This document shows positions 3,008 to 56,585 of a stretch of 64,000 bases of DNA, piece after piece. Source of the stretch: Anaerolineae bacterium (lineage in GTDB: Bacteria; Chloroflexota; Anaerolineae; Aggregatilineales; Phototrophicaceae); NCBI GenBank assembly GCA_022841825.1, contig JALHQT010000001.1:1240001-1304000 (forward strand), given 5' to 3'. The translations under genes and the position numbers were made by a program. How positions within the stretch are numbered: the first letter of the stretch is position 1; every line of letters begins with the position of its first letter. The notes below the pieces were generated by a model. It searched no databases. It was not told the DNA's origin and was given only the letters and a program-made list of their open reading frames with translations.

Positions 3008-5095
3008 ATGAAAAACCTCAGCCCTGCATTGCGCGCCGCCATCATCCTGTCGCTGGTCATCGCGCTGCTCGTCGCCTACTACGCCATCCACAAGCCGCTG
3101 ACGCCGGAGTCGCTGGCGAGTGCTGGCGCAAGCCTCGGTGCGCTCGCCGAGTCAGGCATCGACTCGGCGCTGATGGCAGCCCATCTGTTCGGCGCGCTGC
3201 TGGACATCGCAACCGTCCTTACGCTGCTGGCGGTCTGCGGGGGCATCGGACGCTTCATCCTTCGGCGCGGCTGGGCGGGCGTCACTCTGACCGCTACGGA
3301 GCTGGGCGACGCGGCGCTGGCGGCGCTGCTCGGCGCAGGGGTCGTCAGCGCGCTCACTCTCGGCGCGGCGCTGGCAGGCTGGATCCATCCGCTTGTGCTG
3401 TGGGCAGGACTACTCGTCATCGGCGCCTTGACCTGGCGCGATGCACTCGCCTGGGCGCGGGCGATGGCGACATTGTGGCGAACTACATTTGGGGGCAGTG
3501 CAAGCGGACGCCAGGAACTGCGTCCCTATATACTCCTCATCGCGTTCTTCCTTGGCACGTCGTTCCTGCTCGCGCTCGCCCCACCCTTCTCGTGGGACTC
3601 GATGGTCTATCACCTCGTCGGACCCCAGCGCTACCTGGACAGCGGGCAGATGATCGCCTACAGCGACAACTTCTATCTCGGCTTTCCAAAAAGCATGGAA
3701 ATGCTGTTCGTCGTCACCATAAGCGCGTTCGGACGAGACATACCGCCCGCGCTGGTACATTGGGGCTTTGGCATCTTCGCCCTCATCCTGACTGCCGCCT
3801 GCATCGACAAAACCATCGGCAGGCGCGGCGCGCTCACCGCCGTGCTGCTCCTCCTCGGATCGTTTAATCTGTGGGAGTTGTTCGGCTGGGGCTACGTCGA
3901 TCTGGCGATCATGGCGTACAGCGCGGCGTGCTTCGCGCTCATCCTGCGCTGGCGCGAAACGCGCGTGCAGCGCCTGCTCCTGCTGGTCGGCGCGTTGATC
4001 GGTATTGCGACCGGAATCAAATTCACGTCTGCCTTTCTCGTCGCCGCCATCGGCGTCTATGTCCTCGTCACCGAACCGCGCCGCGTCATCCGCAATGGGC
4101 TGATCATCAGCGTAGCCGCGCTTCTGTGCGCCGCGCCCTGGCTGCTGCGCGCCTGGGCACTCTATGGCAACCCGTTTTTCCCACTGTTGGGCTTCGGGCT
4201 AAACTGGGATGCTGCGCGCTACGATGCCTTTACACGTGAAGGCTTCGGCATGTTGACCGAGCCAACCGCCTGGCAGCTCGTCTTCCTGCCGCTCACGGCG
4301 ACGATCTTCGGCTACAACCTGGGACCGGACACCTCATTCACGCTCGGACCTTTTCTGCTGCCACTCGGTCTTGTGCTGCCGCTCGTCTGGCGCTGGCTGA
4401 ACGACGCACAGCGTATCGCGGCGCGTGCTCTGATCATCCTGGCGCTGCCTATCGTCGCGCTCTGGACGTACCTTGCAGCGACCAGCAACACCGGCGAACA
4501 AACCCGCCTCGCCATCGCACTGCTGCCGCTCGGCGCGCTACTGGGCGCGCTTGCCCTGCACGCAGTAGGCAAGATGCCGCGCAAGCCGCTCGATCTCGGC
4601 TTTATCCTGCGCGGCGCGTTGATCGTCACCACCCTGCTCTCCGCCACCGAGATGCTGACCGAAACGCTCGACCGTCGCCCACTCAATTACCTGCTTGGCT
4701 CGGTTGAGACCGACGATTTCCTCGCCCACAACCTGGGCGTGTGGGACGGCGCAATGTCGCGGCTGGCGGAACTACCGGAAGGGTCAAGCGTCCGGATGAT
4801 GTGGGAACTCCGCAACTATCACTGCCCGGCACATGTGACCTGCATCCCAGACATCATGCTCGACGCCTGGATGTATCCGCTCAGGCGCGGATCAACGCCG
4901 GACGAGGTCTTCGCCGGCTGGCGGGCGCAGGGAGATGATTATGTCCTGCTCTACCACCTGGGGTATGACTTCTTCACGAACGACGACATCTATTCACGGA
5001 CGGAGAATCTCTTGTTCCCAGCAGCTCTGGAAGCGCACATGACTCCCGTCTGGACAGACCAGATGGGAACCTACACGCTCTATACGTGGAAATAG
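3008..5095 (+). CDS. GT-C fold membrane glycosyltransferase
   Basis: A 695-residue protein with about 12 hydrophobic segments and a soluble C-terminal part. After two N-terminal membrane regions comes the loop PPFSWDSMVYHLVGPQRYLDSG, which places an acidic residue and a WD motif in the first large external loop, as in ArnT/PMT-like GT-C enzymes that use lipid-linked sugar donors. The C-terminal domain (from about 570) is hydrophilic and has Cys residues (HCPAHVTC). Acceptor and donor are not deducible. It begins directly after an inverted repeat and ends 27 bases from the convergent isomerase gene. Confidence 0.75.
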   Translation: MKNLSPALRAAIILSLVIALLVAYYAIHKPLTPESLASAGASLGALAESGIDSALMAAHLFGALLDIATVLTLLAVCGGIGRFILRRGWAGVTLTATELGDAALAALLGAGVVSALTLGAALAGWIHPLVLWAGLLVIGALTWRDALAWARAMATLWRTTFGGSASGRQELRPYILLIAFFLGTSFLLALAPPFSWDSMVYHLVGPQRYLDSGQMIAYSDNFYLGFPKSMEMLFVVTISAFGRDIPPALVHWGFGIFALILTAACIDKTIGRRGALTAVLLLLGSFNLWELFGWGYVDLAIMAYSAACFALILRWRETRVQRLLLLVGALIGIATGIKFTSAFLVAAIGVYVLVTEPRRVIRNGLIISVAALLCAAPWLLRAWALYGNPFFPLLGFGLNWDAARYDAFTREGFGMLTEPTAWQLVFLPLTATIFGYNLGPDTSFTLGPFLLPLGLVLPLVWRWLNDAQRIAARALIILALPIVALWTYLAATSNTGEQTRLAIALLPLGALLGALALHAVGKMPRKPLDLGFILRGALIVTTLLSATEMLTETLDRRPLNYLLGSVETDDFLAHNLGVWDGAMSRLAELPEGSSVRMMWELRNYHCPAHVTCIPDIMLDAWMYPLRRGSTPDEVFAGWRAQGDDYVLLYHLGYDFFTNDDIYSRTENLLFPAALEAHMTPVWTDQMGTYTLYTWK

Positions 5096-5122
5096 CAGGC
5101 GGAAGCTGCCGGCGCTTGTCCC

Positions 5123-5920
5123 CTACTCGTTCAGCAGCGCCCGCGCCCGCTGCCCTGCCCACAGGCAGACTTCCCACAAATCGGCGACCGGGACATTGGT
5201 GTGCGGCAGGGTATGCAGATAGGTAGGGGGACCATACTCTGGTGTAAACGTGATCACCGCGTCGCCTGCGCGCTGGCGAACCTGACGTATCTGCTGCCAC
5301 TGACGCTCGTGCCACGCAAGCTCGCTGCTGTATTCCTGCGCAGATGGGTCGGGCACCTGCGGACCCTCAGCATATCCGACGCGCCCATGAATGTGGGCGG
5401 CGTGCTGGTTTGCCAACGCCAGCGCTTCCGCCTGGTCATCGGGGAGCCGTTCGCATACATTCACCCAATGACTGTAGTCCGCCGTGATCTTTAAGCCATC
5501 GAATGCGCGCAGATACGCGGCGGTGTCCCAGGGTGTAAACAAAAGGCACCCGCGATGCGTTTCATGCATGACGGGGGTGCCGAGTTGAGCTTCGACACGC
5601 AGCGCCGCCTCGAAAAAGCGGTTGCCCTCGTCGCGAGTCATCGCATCCCGCCCGCCCTGGACATTGATCTTGAGCGGCGCAAACGACGCAAGAAAAGCGA
5701 GTTCGTCGCCGAGCGTAGTCGTATCTTCGATCCGTCCGGCGGTGATGACCTGGAGTGAGTAGGCTTCCAGAAGGGCGCGCAGTTCGTCTGCATTCACTCC
5801 AACGTAGCGGGGCCACAGCTCGATCCCGTCATAACCTGCCGCCGCAATGCGCGCCAGTTGTTCGGGAAGCGACCCAGTCATGCCCCACAATGCCCGAAAA
5901 ATGAGCGGTTTCATATCCAT
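5123..5920 (-). CDS. Sugar phosphate isomerase/epimerase (xylose isomerase-like TIM barrel)
   Basis: A 265-residue TIM-barrel protein of the AP endonuclease 2 family. The N-terminus (GYDGIELWP) is the usual first barrel motif. Candidate metal ligands are the Glu of VMHETHRG, the Asp of ITADYSHW, the His of HIHGRVGY and the Glu of TFTPEYGP. Members isomerise or epimerise sugars, inosose or related polyols. The specific substrate is unknown. It lies 19 bases after the thioredoxin-like gene on the same strand, so they may be co-transcribed without an obvious functional link. Confidence 0.8.
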   Translation of the reverse strand: MDMKPLIFRALWGMTGSLPEQLARIAAAGYDGIELWPRYVGVNADELRALLEAYSLQVITAGRIEDTTTLGDELAFLASFAPLKINVQGGRDAMTRDEGNRFFEAALRVEAQLGTPVMHETHRGCLLFTPWDTAAYLRAFDGLKITADYSHWVNVCERLPDDQAEALALANQHAAHIHGRVGYAEGPQVPDPSAQEYSSELAWHERQWQQIRQVRQRAGDAVITFTPEYGPPTYLHTLPHTNVPVADLWEVCLWAGQRARALLNE

Positions 5921-49842: not shown

Positions 49843-51225
49843 CTAATCACAGGCATCCCCTCCAGGACCGCCGAAGTAGAAGTAGGTTCCCCAACTGCCG
49901 CCTCGGCTCGCCGGGGTGATGTCGATGGTGTAGCAGCGTGGATTGGGTTCAATCTCGAACAAGTCTACCCATACCCCCACACCGCCGTCCTCATCGCGCG
50001 GAATGTAGAAGATCGTGTTCTGGAAGGCGGCACGCTGCCAGCCCTGATCGCTGAATGCGCCGCTGCCCATCTGCGGCATGTTGCCCGATCCCGTCACTTC
50101 GCCTCCGTACGTTACCTCGGATGCCGAGCGTGAGAGTGCCCCGCCGTCGAAGACTGAACCCGGATAGTAACCGACGGCTTCGTACGCACCGGGTCCGCGC
50201 AGGAACAGCCACCAGTTGCCGCGGAACAGCTTCCACTGCATCTCAAAACCCCACTGCGTTCCGCCGGTGCTGCTGTAGGCGCTCCAGGAACCACCGATGA
50301 ACCAGTTGCGGTTGGTCTGAACGAACGCCGCGCAGTCCAGGTTGTAACACTTCTTCTTCTGGTAGTTATCGGCAGTGTAGAAGATGAACAGGCGCGCATT
50401 GTTGTCGCCGTATTTCTGGTTGTAAACCTGCCAGCCGCCCTCGACGGTTTGCTGGGCATCGCCTTCGCCACCCGCGTACCACTGCTGGGAGAGCGAAAAG
50501 TCGCTGTTCGAGGGGACGTTCGGATTCCACAGGTTCAGCCAGGAGTTACCACCAAAATTGGTGACGTTTTGCCGCGACGCCGCATACATATGATCCGAGT
50601 TGTCGCCCTCCGGGAGCTGCTCACCCTGCGGATACTCGCCGCGCCCATCCGCGCCTTTGCCAAAGAAGGCGTCGAGCGTTTCAAAGCGCGTCATCACGTC
50701 CAGCGTCAGCCGCGCCATCGGAATCGTGCCTTCCTCGCAGCTTACGGGATTGCCGAACGCATCCACCAACCCCAACCGGAGCGGAGAATCGACAGCATCG
50801 CCCGTGCCGGGTGTTTCGCCCTCGCCGCGCTCGTCGCTCTGATCGCTGACCGTCGGTGCGTCCAGGATTGGCTGAATGTCCTGCAAGCGCACAGAAGGCT
50901 GCGACTCGACCGTGATGCAATCAACGTATTGATCGTCATAGACAAAGCTGCTGACTTGTTCGACGCCGTCGTACATCGTGATGACGTGCTGGCGCATCTC
51001 TTCGAAGGCATCCGCATCGCGCACAGCCGCGCCCTCACGCTGCGCATATTCGTCGAATGCTGCGTCCCGTACACCTTGCAGGAAGATGTCGAAGGAGATA
51101 AAGCCGTCCGTCGACGGTTCAGGCGTAGGGGTCGGTGTGTCGGTCGGCGGCACAGGGGTGGGCGTGGGCGAACAGCCCACGATCAGCAGCAGAATTGCGA
51201 TGACCCAATAGTGAGAATGGCGCAT
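49843..51225 (-). CDS. Neprosin family (glutamic) prolyl endopeptidase, lipoprotein
   Basis: 460 residues from the ATG at 51223-51225. Lipoprotein signal with LIVGC, then a Pro/Thr linker and a propeptide-like domain (about 40-190: DAFEEMRQHVITMYDGVEQV, DCITVESQPSVRL, EEGTIPMARLT). The catalytic neprosin domain (about 210-460) is clear: TVEGGWQVY, YTADNYQKKKCYN, GNWWLFLRG, GYYPGSVF, GGEVTG and the YFYFGGPGG end. The catalytic glutamate pair corresponds to E262 (TVEGG) and E376 (GGEV), 114 residues apart, near the 109 of plant neprosin. It probably cleaves after proline on the cell surface. Confidence 0.85.
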   Translation of the reverse strand: MRHSHYWVIAILLLIVGCSPTPTPVPPTDTPTPTPEPSTDGFISFDIFLQGVRDAAFDEYAQREGAAVRDADAFEEMRQHVITMYDGVEQVSSFVYDDQYVDCITVESQPSVRLQDIQPILDAPTVSDQSDERGEGETPGTGDAVDSPLRLGLVDAFGNPVSCEEGTIPMARLTLDVMTRFETLDAFFGKGADGRGEYPQGEQLPEGDNSDHMYAASRQNVTNFGGNSWLNLWNPNVPSNSDFSLSQQWYAGGEGDAQQTVEGGWQVYNQKYGDNNARLFIFYTADNYQKKKCYNLDCAAFVQTNRNWFIGGSWSAYSSTGGTQWGFEMQWKLFRGNWWLFLRGPGAYEAVGYYPGSVFDGGALSRSASEVTYGGEVTGSGNMPQMGSGAFSDQGWQRAAFQNTIFYIPRDEDGGVGVWVDLFEIEPNPRCYTIDITPASRGGSWGTYFYFGGPGGDACD

Positions 51226-51257
51226 TTGGTTCTTGCCCTTCAGCATGCAAGAGGACA

Positions 51258-51599
51258 TCACAGCCTGGGATAGCTGGAAGGGCGCTTACCCAGGAAATCC
51301 TCCAACGTTTGGAAGCGCGTCATCTCCTCCAGAGTGATGCGCCGAATGGGAATGCTGCCTTCAGGACAGCCCGACTCATCCGATGCATCCACGCGCGCTT
51401 CTAAAGAGATCATGCAGTCGAACACGTCATTCTCTACAAGCAGGCTGCGAACTGCCCGCAGCCCGGCATAGCGCGCCAGAATATGCGCGCGCATTGCCTC
51501 GAACGCCGCCGCATCCTTGACGCACGCATCCGCCTTCCCTACGTAGTCGAGGTAACGAGCGCTGCGAGTATGGGTCAGGAAAGTCGCGAAGTCATCCAT
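51258..51599 (-). CDS. Free-standing copy of the neprosin propeptide-like domain
   Basis: 113 residues with no signal peptide and no catalytic domain. It aligns with residues about 45-190 of the neighbouring neprosin-like protein: DAAAFEAMRAHILARYAGL against DADAFEEMRQHVITMYDGV, DCMISLEAR against DCITVESQP, CPEGSIPIRRITLEEMTRFQTLEDFLGK against CEEGTIPMARLTLDVMTRFETLDAFFGK. It is therefore a separate gene, perhaps a trans-acting inhibitor or chaperone of the peptidase. It lies 6 bases after the methyltransferase stop and 32 before the peptidase start. Confidence 0.75.
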   Translation of the reverse strand: MDDFATFLTHTRSARYLDYVGKADACVKDAAAFEAMRAHILARYAGLRAVRSLLVENDVFDCMISLEARVDASDESGCPEGSIPIRRITLEEMTRFQTLEDFLGKRPSSYPRL

Positions 51600-52260: not shown

Positions 52261-54261
52261 TCACGAAGGTTTCTGCGGCAGTGCAGCGATAATGGCGTCA
52301 ATCTGCGCTTCGAGTTCGGCGATTTTCGCCTTTAGCGCAGTCTCTTCCGCGTTCAGCGCATCCAGCCGATCCTGCAATGCCTCGAACTGCGCCAACACGC
52401 GCTGCCGCAGCGCCGCCTCCTGCCCGCTCGGCTGAAGTGTCGTCAGGTTGGCGCGCAGTTGTTCTTGCCCACCGTATGCTGATTCACGATCCTTCACTAT
52501 CTGGCGAATGCGTTCATACGCCTCGCGCAGAGTCCCCAATTTGGCAATAAGCTTACGCAAGCTAGCATAAGTTGCTTCGTCCAACCACCGATTTTGCAGA
52601 TATGTGCGAAGGGCTTCGTACCTGATATCGCGAATGTCTAGCTTTTGCTCAATCAGATTACGCCGTTTACGAGTAAAGCTCGCCTGACCTTTCGCCTTGA
52701 CACTCACTAGCCAGCGAGGCTGCGTCAAAGATGGGAAATCGGGAGTGAGTGTATCGAATATCTCGGCACCTGCCGGAAGCGGCGGCGTTTCAATTGTGAC
52801 GACCTGAGATTGCGTGGTTCGGTTCTCAATATGGTATGTGACTTCGGCGACAACATACCTTTCTTCGATCAGAAATTGACCTTTGAACTGAATTCCAGCA
52901 ACAACCGTGTAGCCCTTTCTCTCTTCCGTGATCTTGATCCCCAACTCCACCGCGTAGGGCACGTAGATCTCGCCTGTATCGCGCGTGAATGGCACGACCG
53001 CATCGCCTTTGTAATCGCTGTCCTCGACAAGTGTGACGGGTCCGCGTTCCAGCGTCAGCCCGGTCGTATTGGTAAAGCGCAGCGCCGCCACCGGATGATC
53101 GGGCAGCTTATCGCGGTTGTAGAGCAGCTCGCGCGTGTAGGCAACTTCAGCGCTGAGGATCGGCACCAGCGCCGACTCGCCGCGTTTGACCGAGACCGGC
53201 GCAGCGACCGTGTACTGGAAGAACTCGCCCGCGTCTTTGGTCGCCGCATTCGCAGAGACGCTCGCCTTTGCGCTTGCCATCGTGATACCGCGCGCACGTT
53301 CTTCAGGCACAGAGTCTGCCGAGAGCATTCTCGCAGACGCAACTCGCCCTGTGCGCTTCGCAAGAACAGGTTCTGCACGTTCAAACTCGGGTTCGTCCAT
53401 CAGGAAGTCGCCTTCATATTCGATGGGTCCCGGCGCGACGCGTGCTTCGTCGCGCACGGTCGGGCGCTGCGGGATGGTCGAGCTGTAGAGATCGTAGATG
53501 AACGAGATCGGCTGTCCGGCGACCAGTGAGACGCGGACATTCTCCAGGTCTTCTTCCAGGCGATTGTCGAACAACCCCCAGCCTTGCAGAAGCGCCTTGC
53601 CCGTCTCGCGCTTTTCGTCGCTCTCGGCGACGATGCGGTAGCTGACACGCCAGGTCGGGCTGGGCGCGACATAGTAGACGGCGAGATCGTGCTCGCCTGC
53701 GCTCAGGCGGACGTGCACGCTGCGCCGCGCGTCATCACCGACGGCGGTATCGAGGAAGTAGGTCAGGTCATGCTTCGCCTGCGGATCGAGGATACGCACG
53801 CCGCGCACGGCATCCAACCGGACAACGCGCACCTGCCCGCTTTCGTCCAGCAGTGTGATGAACGTCAGCGCGCGCACATCCGCCTCGGAGCTGTACGACT
53901 CCGGTTGCTCCATGCCGATGACGCGCCCGGCGACCGTCTCCAGCGAACCTGGCGCGACTTCATGCGTCAGTTCGGCGCTGCGCCCGCGCAGATCCGAAAT
54001 CAACCCACGCAGGCTTGCCTCCGACGACAGGCGGATCGATGAGCTGGCGAGCCGTGCCTGCATATCCATCGGCGTCGGGTAATGGATGCCCAACACCTGA
54101 CCACCTGCTTTGTCGAAGACGGCGAGGCTCTTGAGCACATCGTTGATCTCGTCCCCGCGGAAGGTCAGCGTCAGCGCCTCGCCACTTAATGCGCCGCCCC
54201 GGACGAAGAAGCCGACGCCATGTTTGTACAGCACCATCTCGCGCACAGGAAGATTCGACAT
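52261..54261 (-). CDS. DUF4139 domain protein
   Basis: 666 residues from the ATG at 54259-54261. Family features: N-terminal LPVREMVLYKHGVGFF, long beta-rich region, YYVAPSPTWRVSYRIV, DUF4139 core, and a C-terminal coiled coil (about 560-660; DRLDALNAEETALKAKIAELEAQIDAI). No signal peptide, so it is likely cytoplasmic. Function of the family is unknown. The divergent region to tryptophan dioxygenase contains an inverted REP pair. Confidence 0.8.
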   Translation of the reverse strand: MSNLPVREMVLYKHGVGFFVRGGALSGEALTLTFRGDEINDVLKSLAVFDKAGGQVLGIHYPTPMDMQARLASSSIRLSSEASLRGLISDLRGRSAELTHEVAPGSLETVAGRVIGMEQPESYSSEADVRALTFITLLDESGQVRVVRLDAVRGVRILDPQAKHDLTYFLDTAVGDDARRSVHVRLSAGEHDLAVYYVAPSPTWRVSYRIVAESDEKRETGKALLQGWGLFDNRLEEDLENVRVSLVAGQPISFIYDLYSSTIPQRPTVRDEARVAPGPIEYEGDFLMDEPEFERAEPVLAKRTGRVASARMLSADSVPEERARGITMASAKASVSANAATKDAGEFFQYTVAAPVSVKRGESALVPILSAEVAYTRELLYNRDKLPDHPVAALRFTNTTGLTLERGPVTLVEDSDYKGDAVVPFTRDTGEIYVPYAVELGIKITEERKGYTVVAGIQFKGQFLIEERYVVAEVTYHIENRTTQSQVVTIETPPLPAGAEIFDTLTPDFPSLTQPRWLVSVKAKGQASFTRKRRNLIEQKLDIRDIRYEALRTYLQNRWLDEATYASLRKLIAKLGTLREAYERIRQIVKDRESAYGGQEQLRANLTTLQPSGQEAALRQRVLAQFEALQDRLDALNAEETALKAKIAELEAQIDAIIAALPQKPS

Positions 54262-54327
54262 AAGGTCGGAACTCACATTTGTAAACGTCGAGGCTATTGT
54301 ATCGTGATACACTCAAAATCAATCGTG

Positions 54328-54411: not shown

Positions 54412-55236
54412 ATGACCGATATGCACAACGGCGCGCAGCTCGACTTTGACGGCGAGATGTCGTATGGCGACTATCTGGGACTCGATACGCTGCTCGACGC
54501 CCAACATCCCCTTTCGCCCGATCACAACGAGATGCTCTTCATCATCCAGCATCAGACGAGCGAGCTGTGGATGAAGCTGATGCTGCACGAGTTGTACGCC
54601 GCTCGCGCACACATCGCGCAGGATGATCTGTCGCCTGCCTTCAAGATGATGGCGCGCGTCGCCCGCATCATGGCGCAGCTCGTCCACAGTTGGGATGTGC
54701 TTGCGACGCTGACGCCAAGCGAATACAGCGCCATCCGTCCTTATCTCAAGCAGTCCTCCGGCTTCCAATCGCACCAGTATCGCCTGATCGAGTTCGCGCT
54801 TGGCAACAAGAGCACGGTCATGATGCGCCCGCACCGCCATAAGACGGCGATCCATGCCGAGCTGGAACACGAGCTGCACACGCCCTCGCTGTACGACGAG
54901 GCAGTCTGTGCGCTGGCACGGCACGGATTTGAGATCGCGCCCGACGTGCTCGAGCGCGACTGGTCACAGCCTCGTCCGTATTCGGCGGATGTCGAGGCGG
55001 CTTGGCTGGCGGTCTACCAGCAGCCGAACGAGCAGTGGGAATTGTATGAACTGGCGGAAAAGCTGGTCGATCTGGAGGACAGCTTTCGGCAGTGGCGCTT
55101 CCGCCATCTGACGACCGTCGAGCGCATCATCGGCTTCAAGCGCGGCACAGGCGGCACCAGCGGCGCGGGCTATCTGAAGGGCGTGATGGATATCCAGCTC
55201 TTCCCGGAGTTGTGGCGCGTGCGGACGAGTCTTTAA
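54412..55236 (+). CDS. kynA: Tryptophan 2,3-dioxygenase
   Basis: 274 residues, near the usual length of bacterial TDO (about 280). Heme enzyme that opens the indole ring of tryptophan to N-formylkynurenine, the first step of the kynurenine route. Motifs: [30 protein letters not shown] (start of the heme pocket), [16 protein letters not shown] with the substrate-binding Arg, and the loop [14 protein letters not shown] that closes over the substrate. No other kynurenine genes are adjacent. Confidence 0.95.
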
Positions 55237-55503: not shown

Positions 55504-55881
55504 TCAACTACCCCGCATAACCGACCGCCCCACAAACCGCTGCCCCGCCTCAATCTGCGCGACGCGCTCCGCCGACAGCGTGCCGATGTATTCGCCGAGC
55601 TGCGCCGCCTCGAGCGTTGCCACCTTCGACACCTCGATCACGCTCTGCCGGGGCAGGTTGCCCTCGCCCGCTTCGAGCAGGATGTTGCCAGGGATGCTGA
55701 CGCGCTTGAGGTTCGAGGTGAGCGCGCAGACGGTCACCATGTCCGCGCGACCGTCGGCGGGCACATCCGCTTCGATGACGACATAGGGATGCGGGATGCG
55801 CGCCGCTTCGCCCTCTTCGCTCGCCAGTTGTATCCAGAAGATGTCGCCCTTGCGAATGACGCGCTCAGACTGCTCGCTCAT
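55504..55881 (-). CDS. PemK/MazF family protein
   Basis: 125 residues with the SH3-like barrel of PemK/MazF mRNA endoribonuclease toxins: KGDIFWIQL at the start, RIPHPYVVIEADVP, and VTVCALTSNLKR, which corresponds to the strand with the catalytic Thr/Ser in MazF, then IPGNILLEAGEGNLPRQSVIEVSKVATLE. It overlaps the upstream HEAT-repeat gene by 4 bases. No MazE-, PemI- or ribbon-helix-helix-type antitoxin is encoded next to it. It may be a toxin or a domesticated member. Confidence 0.82.
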   Translation of the reverse strand: MSEQSERVIRKGDIFWIQLASEEGEAARIPHPYVVIEADVPADGRADMVTVCALTSNLKRVSIPGNILLEAGEGNLPRQSVIEVSKVATLEAAQLGEYIGTLSAERVAQIEAGQRFVGRSVMRGS

Positions 55882-56585
55882 CGCGACAGCCTGCTCGCCA
55901 TCTCCTTCGCCATCGCACGCACGGGCTGCTGCGGATCGTCGAGCAGCGTCTCCATGACAGGCAGCGCGCGGCGGTCGCCGATGCTGCCGAGTGCTTGGAG
56001 GATCGCGACGCGCACCTGCCAGTCGTCCGCCGCCAGCGCCGCGATCAGCGGTTCGAGCGCCCGTGCATCGCCAAGCTCGCCGAGCAAACTTGCGGCAAGT
56101 TCACGCGCCTGCGCAGACTCGAACTTCAGCGCGTTGATCAACGGCGCGAGCGCCGCTCCGCCGAATCGCTCCACAACTTCGCGCGCGGTATTCGCCACCT
56201 CCGGCACGCGATCGCTCAGACGAGTCACCAGCGCATCAACCGCTCGCGCGTCGCCGATCTGCCCCAGCACGTAAACCGCCTTCATACGCACCTTCGCCTC
56301 AGCATCCTCGGTCGCCGCGATCAGCGCGGGCACAGCACGCCTGTCCCCGATCTTTCCGAGGGCATGGACGATGTTGTGCCGGGCGCGCGCATCGCTGTGC
56401 GCGATTGCCTCCAGCAGCGCCGTCACCGCCGCGCCACCGTGCTTCACCACCACCCATGTCGCATCCTCGACGACATTCAGATCGTCGTCTGTGCAGAGGA
56501 CACCAACCAGCGTGGCAATCGACTCTGCGTCGTCAAACGCGCCCGGCACAAGCTGCATGATGGCTTCGCTGCGCTGATTCCTCAT
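55878..56585 (-). CDS. HEAT-repeat protein upstream of PemK
   Basis: 235 residues made almost entirely of PBS-lyase-type HEAT repeats: about six copies of the pattern ALG-x-IGD-x-RA-x-P-x-L, for example VHALGKIGDRRAVPALIAA, VLGQIGDARAVDALV, LLGELGDARALEPLI and ALGSIGDRRALPVM. No catalytic motif. A superhelical binding scaffold. It ends in the start of the PemK gene, so the pair is co-translated, which raises the possibility that it acts as the toxin's binding partner. Confidence 0.82.
   Translation of the reverse strand: MRNQRSEAIMQLVPGAFDDAESIATLVGVLCTDDDLNVVEDATWVVVKHGGAAVTALLEAIAHSDARARHNIVHALGKIGDRRAVPALIAATEDAEAKVRMKAVYVLGQIGDARAVDALVTRLSDRVPEVANTAREVVERFGGAALAPLINALKFESAQARELAASLLGELGDARALEPLIAALAADDWQVRVAILQALGSIGDRRALPVMETLLDDPQQPVRAMAKEMASRLSR

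Follow-up and report, generated by a model that had tools for sequence, protein, structure and literature searches.

A free-standing neprosin pro-domain gene next to a neprosin-family peptidase gene in Anaerolineae: a candidate trans-acting pro-domain

Two neighbouring genes on the minus strand of a 64,000-nucleotide stretch from an Anaerolineae bacterium (the window) encode a homologue of the glutamic peptidase neprosin and, separately, a second copy of its pro-domain. The initial annotation had located them at 49843-51225 and 51258-51599, and this two-gene arrangement is confirmed. Judged by its sequence, the small protein is a trimmed copy of the neprosin pro-domain and homologous to the pro-domain fused to the neighbouring peptidase (the cis pro-domain). 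Tentatively, and with a confidence that falls somewhat short of calling it probable, we propose that the small protein may act in trans as a pro-domain, binding the catalytic domain of its neighbour and blocking it before export.

The peptidase gene

The larger gene (49843-51225, minus strand) is an open reading frame for a neprosin-family glutamic peptidase of 460 aa. Pfam family Neprosin (PF03080) matches residues 241-454 with an E value of 1.9e-53 and 181.5 bits against a cut-off of 22, and HMMER comparison with plant neprosin in the PDB gives E values of 2.5e-37 (9qr8) and 4.8e-37 (7zu8), while the match to NCBIfam is at chance level (E 0.27). The N-terminus, MRHSHYWVIAILLLIVGC, by eye resembles a lipoprotein-type signal with the lipobox IVGC (residues 1-18), followed by a Pro/Thr-rich stalk (residues 19-40; signal and stalk together at 51106-51225). 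The cis pro-domain follows at residues 41-199 (50629-51105), as delimited by a profile match to 7zu8 and by a block in the AF2 model, and its alignment reveals a loop between the conserved cysteines (residues 104-162, 50740-50916), most of which the small protein lacks. Residues 206-460 (49846-50610) make up the catalytic domain according to PF03080 and an alignment to mature neprosin (7zvb).

Seven active-site residues of plant neprosin have been mutated in a published study (PMC9343461). HMMER alignments to 9qr8 and 7zu8, along which residue numbers were counted by hand, yield E262 as the counterpart of neprosin E188 (codon at 50440-50442), E376 for E297 (50098-50100), Q247 for Q173, W249 for W175, H212 for H134, Y214 for Y136 and Y288 for Y214. 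Six of these seven residues are invariant in eight bacterial proteins, the exception being Y214 of the window protein. Both catalytic glutamates are among the invariant ones (8/8 proteins), and the annotation of the gene product as a lipoprotein homologue that keeps both of them thus holds. The three bacterial relatives closest to the peptidase are 77, 81 and 58% identical to it, the other four 35-44%. Alternative in-frame starts of the gene are present at 51258 (ATG) and 51261 (GTG), the former overlapping the stop codon of the small gene in the sequence TGATG.

In the AF2 prediction, pLDDT values of the cis pro-domain are 84-95 for residues 41-120, 29-57 for residues 121-150 and 75-88 for residues 151-190. 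The model of the peptidase is poor in the catalytic domain (mean pLDDT 54.8 with eight sequences), too poor to carry a docking argument. The length of the Pro/Thr-rich stalk (51106-51171) varies widely among the three species that carry the gene pair, being shortest in the window and longest in Anaerolineae bacterium SJ143. A peptidase with post-proline specificity could conceivably cleave the stalk by which it is anchored and thereby leave the cell surface.

Anatomy of the free-standing pro-domain

The small gene (51258-51599, minus strand), identified as an open reading frame with BLASTP and Pfam matches, encodes 113 aa and is separated from the peptidase gene by a gap of 32 bases (51226-51257). 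Its product contains no catalytic domain. BLASTP aligns it with residues 45-190 of the peptidase at an E value of 6e-21, a similarity much too strong for chance, with 31% identity in 147 columns; these include 46 gap columns, nearly all of them between the two conserved cysteines. The match to Neprosin_AP (PF14365; E 1.1e-5, 26.3 bits) does not reach the curated cut-off of 39.2, and the same applies to the fused pro-domain of the peptidase itself (14.7 bits, E 0.044), to the two orthologues of the small protein (21.5 and 19.9 bits) and to a split pro-domain from a gammaproteobacterium described below (17.8 bits). NCBIfam gave no match for the small protein. The open frame spans 115 codons, only two of them ahead of the ATG, so that there is no room in frame for a signal peptide. 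In the three species the frames comprise 115, 123 and 128 codons, with 2, 7 and 12 codons open before the ATG, and by inspection none of the three proteins has a secretion signal; a signal peptide hidden farther upstream was rejected since the frames close within these distances. The initial description of the upstream gene as a propeptide-like part lacking a signal peptide therefore agrees with both the alignment and the frame.

AF2 predicts the small protein as a confident single domain (mean pLDDT 89.0, pTM 0.80) with helices at residues 4-13 and 30-43, strands at 47-55, 58-65 and 83-86 and helices at 90-93 and 99-103. The predicted elements of the cis pro-domain are helices at 45-54 and 71-85, strands at 90-96, 99-105 and 167-171 and helices at 175-178 and 184-188, i.e., the main helices and strands occur in the same order, with two extra short helices in the cis pro-domain (57-61 and, within the loop, 110-115). 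A Foldseek search with the model of the small protein returned a best E value of 1.6, which is not significant, and no neprosin chain among the best 50 of 287 matches; VIA-align reached Z values of at most 3.1, to chromodomains, which we take as chance. A profile of 12 bacterial pro-domains, including the three small proteins and the cis pro-domain of the window, matches the pro-domain of PDB 7zu8 with an E value of 1.2e-4 over a region comprising both cysteines and the strand that follows.

C62 and C78 of the small protein are invariant in all 12 alignment rows. When columns free of gaps in the nine other pro-domains are counted, which drops the N-terminal helix that is absent from two of them (L020 and L021), 20 columns are conserved in at least eight of the nine. 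Eleven of these are kept by all three small proteins, among them both cysteines and an invariant lysine (K105), and seven are deleted in all three together with the missing loop; one further column is kept in two of the three and another is changed from F to L or I. The motifs Gln-Pro and Asp-x-x-Gly-Asn are absent from the small proteins.

The C-termini read SSYPRL in the window and GSYPR in both relatives. These three ends and that of the split gammaproteobacterial pro-domain (SSFPNS) fall within one alignment column of each other and 1-2 residues beyond the counterpart of neprosin P121; the Tyr-Pro of the small proteins is aligned with neprosin F120-P121 via the EYP of the peptidase. In neprosin, the linker L113-P121 crosses the active-site cleft, the flexible stretch N122-N131 begins directly after P121, where the linker ends, and maturation cleavage occurs at P128-S129 (PMC9343461). 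The position of its end thus indicates that the free domain includes the cleft-crossing segment and terminates short of the cleavage site. The shared end point is modest evidence, as we estimate that two independent ends would come to lie within two residues of each other in a linker of about 30 residues by chance about once in six. We would guess that K105 is equivalent to neprosin K118, although the two are not aligned position for position. Plant neprosin combines a basic pro-domain (pI 9.5) with an acidic catalytic part (pI 4.3) (PMC9343461); such charge complementarity was looked for in the computed pI values of the window proteins and not found (small protein 5.35, cis pro-domain 4.05, catalytic domain 4.51).

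Conservation of the gene pair

Within the genus, a neprosin domain is encoded in 3 of 15 genomes, and the small gene is present in the same three (3/61 relatives searched). A sample of 98 genomes from the family, counted as species and not covering every species, contains three with a pro-domain match, each with both the fused and the free form, and all 95 genomes without a fused pro-domain are also without a free one; completeness is 90% or more and contamination 5% or less in 63 of the 98 genomes, including the three carriers. Loss of the small gene from relatives that keep the peptidase, named in the initial annotation as evidence against the proposal, is not seen in the family, where 3/3 peptidase genomes carry it. 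The three congeneric species may represent one inherited event. In a phylum-wide sample, 2 of 301 genomes encode a neprosin domain, that of the window and one other (G221). In the latter, the catalytic domain resides in a 395-codon frame (L014:1495-2679, minus strand) with a cytoplasmic-looking N-terminus (MSDQPRPNGAQ...) and no match to the pro-domain profile.

The relatives with the pair are Anaerolineae bacterium SJ143 (JADLAY010000006.1) and Anaerolineae bacterium CHL11 (JAHDWN010000033.1). The small proteins share 58, 65 and 76% identity in pairwise comparison; those of the two relatives are 58 and 65% identical to the window protein, compared with 70 and 75% for the cis pro-domains. The frame of the small gene is intact in all three species. 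Its dN/dS ratios are 0.153/0.90, 0.269/1.63 and 0.35/2.04, i.e., about 0.17 each, with dS near saturation in two of the three comparisons, and third codon positions carry 48/80, 62/111 and 65/127 of the differences. The small gene is under purifying selection; it is conserved and is not debris.

In all three species the small gene and the peptidase gene are adjacent, closely spaced and on the same strand. The gap of 32 bases in the window corresponds to 35 bases in both relatives when ATG starts are assumed, and to 17 bases in strain CHL11 with a GTG start. The surroundings differ. In strain CHL11 the pair is flanked by a DinB-like gene and a beta-lactamase-family gene (Pfam), relatives of which occupy the same places in strain SJ143 (76 and 69% identity), while a methyltransferase gene and a gene for 75 aa, followed by a radical SAM gene, flank the pair in the window. 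The best matches to the CHL11 flanking genes in the genome of the window reside on contigs C9 (53% identity) and C3 (68%), apart from the pair on contig C1. That the pair stayed together in different surroundings supports a functional link but does not prove it, because a move of the whole block without selection for linkage would give the same picture.

Origin and wider distribution

The cis pro-domains of the three species cluster together (95/98) with the small proteins outside, which means that the small genes did not arise from them by recent copying. In a tree without the three long rows L055, L020 and L021, grouping the small proteins with the genus's cis pro-domains was not rejected (p-AU 0.134), nor was grouping them with the split gammaproteobacterial pro-domain (p-AU 0.41) or with the cis pro-domains and L017 (p-AU 0.421).

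The split case is found in gammaproteobacterium OFTM154 (JAJFKX010000049.1, locus L018, positions 3893-5311). Here, a pro-domain of 196 aa is encoded by a gene of its own that ends with two stop codons, and the ATG of a separate gene for the catalytic domain (PF03080, E 1.2e-52) follows 12 bases past the second stop. Both genes have, by eye, a signal-peptide-like start. A sequencing error is an unlikely cause of the split since it would hardly have inserted a second signal peptide, and the arrangement suggests that evolution can dispense with the covalent link between the two domains. The genome of strain OFTM154 also encodes a second neprosin, which is fused (L035). The split locus resembles that of the window in that the pro-domain is encoded in a separate adjacent gene and ends at the same alignment position. 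However, the separate pro-domain of strain OFTM154 stands in place of the fused one, still has the loop and starts with a signal-peptide-like stretch, whereas that of the window is additional, trimmed and devoid of a signal peptide. On account of these anatomical differences the two loci are likely to be independent, a view that rests on anatomy and not on a tree.

A scan of 24 loci, with the window not counted and with place-repeats (L036, L037, L051-L054) and loci repeating the window, L015-L022 or their genomes left aside, comprised the two relatives with the extra domain, the split locus of strain OFTM154, 19 loci for a fused protein of pro-domain and catalytic domain with no second pro-domain in the DNA scanned (one of them near a contig end and with a partial pro-domain), one locus with a pro-domain only at a contig end and one with a catalytic domain lacking this pro-domain. 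Apart from the split in strain OFTM154, a separate small gene was not found outside the genus among the 24 loci. Conserved pairs, which the initial annotation suggested looking for in other bacteria, are present in 3/3 cases within the genus, but 19 of the 24 scanned loci are fused and have no separate pro-domain gene. Profile searches for the pro-domain matched at least 14 of 299, at least 11 of 250, 2 of 95 and at least 1 of 346 genomes. The sets of 299 and 250 genomes overlap, and in the sets of 299, 250 and 346 scoring was confined to the best 12, 15 and 10 candidates per genome, which weak pro-domains may have escaped. A short pro-domain in its own frame was found in none of the genomes searched by profile except for the split locus and the contig-cut locus L046.

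Among plasmid records, two matched the small protein and four the peptidase, and two of the plasmid copies are labelled 'neprosin family prolyl endopeptidase' by NCBI. A viral or phage origin was considered and dropped: the small protein had no match in phage records at an E value of 0.01, and pattern scans of viral contigs, each relying on a handful of short peptide motifs, hit 35 and 12 stretches, among which no relative was confirmed.

Possible function of the small protein

If the small protein acts on its neighbour, the following course of events is conceivable. The small gene would share an operon with the peptidase gene, and in the cytoplasm its product may dock beside the active-site cleft of peptidase that has folded before export, the segment from the invariant lysine to the C-terminus occupying the cleft in the manner of the neprosin linker. 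As its chain ends before the maturation site, the small protein should be uncleavable there and could keep the peptidase latent or help to hold it for export. Early-folded peptidase would then stay cleft-blocked until it is exported or degraded, and latency outside the cell would be left to the cis pro-domain. The small protein may in this way guard the cell against its own enzyme. The peptidase appears to be exported and the small protein not, from which it follows that the latter acts only before export or that the idea is wrong. Cytoplasmic blocking of early-folded chains is favoured by the exported nature of the target taken together with the precedents of SpeB-Spi and the staphopains, while the missing loop, the missing signal peptide and the like-charged partners weigh against the plant mechanism having simply been taken over.

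The initial interpretation as a free inhibitor is borne out in so far as the pro-domain is real, under selection and paired with the peptidase. Other observations count against a guard. The peptidase already has a complete cis pro-domain of its own, to which the small protein is an extra one. With the loop, the small protein has lost the counterpart of neprosin A60, a residue at the pro-domain interface whose exchange to arginine prevented recovery of folded protein (PMC9343461). The two cysteines of the small protein are probably reduced in the cytoplasm, and the gene is known from only three species of one genus, which perhaps count as a single event.

A serious rival, though one we think rather unlikely, is that the duplicated pro-domain has found a new partner in place of the catalytic domain, such as a regulator, the export machinery or the cis pro-domain, its pairing with the peptidase reflecting a common pathway. 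The lost loop, which carried 7 of the 20 conserved columns as well as the A60 counterpart, would fit such a change of role, as would the presumably cytoplasmic location of the small protein, the fact that latency is already served by the cis pro-domain and the faster change of the small proteins (identities to the window protein of 58 and 65%, as opposed to 70 and 75% among the cis pro-domains). Yet the lysine, the cysteines and the end of the cleft segment have been kept, suggesting a retained mode of binding to the catalytic domain, and the small gene is closely linked to the peptidase gene. Should the small protein leave the cell by a non-Sec route or upon lysis, it might inhibit the mature peptidase outside; its homology to the inhibitory domain of the zymogen is in line with this, and the separate pro-domain of strain OFTM154 does have a signal-peptide-like start. 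We consider such an extracellular inhibitor, which is the initial interpretation taken plainly, improbable, given that a signal peptide is absent in all three species, with only 2, 7 and 12 open codons upstream.

Many propeptides are folding helpers, and the small protein could likewise serve as a chaperone in trans for the catalytic domain without being an inhibitor. Pro-domain and catalytic domain are separate chains in strain OFTM154, and the A60R variant of neprosin, altered at the pro-domain interface, could not be isolated as folded protein (PMC9343461). The exported lipoprotein should, however, fold outside the cell, and the small protein is not expected to be there; moreover, the counterpart of A60 has gone with the loop, so that we give this reading even less weight than extracellular inhibition. 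Least of all do we believe in a functionless remnant of a decayed tandem peptidase copy. A truncated copy adjoining an intact gene in one genus only might look like one, but the gene is intact in three species at 58-76% amino-acid identity, its differences fall at third positions in the proportions given above, the protein is predicted to fold well and the 32 bases between the genes are free of catalytic-domain debris; gene debris was rejected on the basis of the dN/dS of about 0.17 and the three intact orthologues.

Returning to a trans-acting pro-domain that blocks the peptidase before export, and combining it with the split locus, it is conceivable, with more doubt than attaches to the blocking role itself, that bacterial neprosins have twice parted with a built-in safety catch, once as a secreted split zymogen in strain OFTM154 and once as an extra, cytoplasmic and uncleavable pro-domain in the window.

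Comparison with known systems

The Nepenthes neprosin zymogen (PDB 7zu8, 7zva, 9qr8) resembles the window peptidase in its catalytic domain, where both glutamates and the five other active-site residues recur, and in a homologous pro-domain with two cysteines. Its pro-domain is fused, basic and released in acid. In the window, by contrast, the enzyme is lipoprotein-like, and its zymogen is accompanied by a further pro-domain that is encoded separately, has been trimmed and is not basic. Spi is not known to have a secretion signal, and its inhibition of SpeB has reportedly been published, while for the window pair inhibition is a proposal. Cytoplasmic control of premature staphopain activation is said to have been described by Shaw et al. 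in 2005. In Streptococcus pyogenes, the gene for the propeptide-analogue inhibitor Spi lies beside the SpeB protease gene and is co-transcribed with it (PMC2873492). As in the window, a separate propeptide-homologous gene is adjacent to and on the same strand as the protease gene, but SpeB is a cysteine peptidase of family C10 and not a glutamic peptidase. The staphostatin gene is juxtaposed to that of a secreted staphopain; staphostatin is lipocalin-like and not propeptide-like (PMC2873492), and in this it differs from the small protein of the window. We propose that the window arrangement may be of the SpeB-Spi and staphopain-staphostatin kind in another catalytic class. The propeptide-like I29 inhibitors CTLA-2alpha, crammer and BCPI are also free-standing and inhibit in trans, the C-terminal region being essential in BCPI (PMC4089206); they are animal proteins directed against cysteine proteases, and their domain is different from that of the small protein. 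When the pro-domain alone or the neprosin domain alone of LOTR1 was produced from artificial constructs, the products were intracellular and did not complement (PMC8794472).

The principle is known from cysteine peptidases, and the window locus appears to be a variant of it in neprosins. That a free inhibitor would be new for neprosin though known in other families, as the initial annotation held, agrees with the literature searched, which offers SpeB-Spi as a precedent (PMC2873492); in the portions available to us, with subscription journals mostly and bioRxiv excluded, a free-standing neprosin pro-domain gene is not mentioned. If our proposal is correct, neprosin-type glutamic peptidases would have their first endogenous protein inhibitor, and glutamic peptidases as a whole their first cytoplasmic guard, both within that literature and to our knowledge. 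The small protein would then show what part of the pro-domain suffices for latency and by what means a bacterium restrains such a peptidase prior to export. Oral enzymes against gluten peptides are being developed from neprosin and an engineered form of it, and the neprosin inhibitors reported are weak and also inhibit aspartate peptidases (PMC9343461); a natural trimmed pro-domain without the maturation site could then serve as a template for a specific neprosin inhibitor. Neprosin orthologues have been stated to be restricted to plants (PMC9343461), a statement on which the bacterial relatives bear.

Other genes in the window

A tryptophan 2,3-dioxygenase family gene (54412-55236, plus strand; PF03301) adjoins a gene on the minus strand (52261-54312) for a protein of 683 aa that has no Pfam match above cut-off. 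A PemK/MazF-like toxin gene overlaps by four bases with a gene for a HEAT-repeat protein (Pfam; 55504-56585, minus strand), and the latter sits where the antitoxin of such a toxin might be expected.
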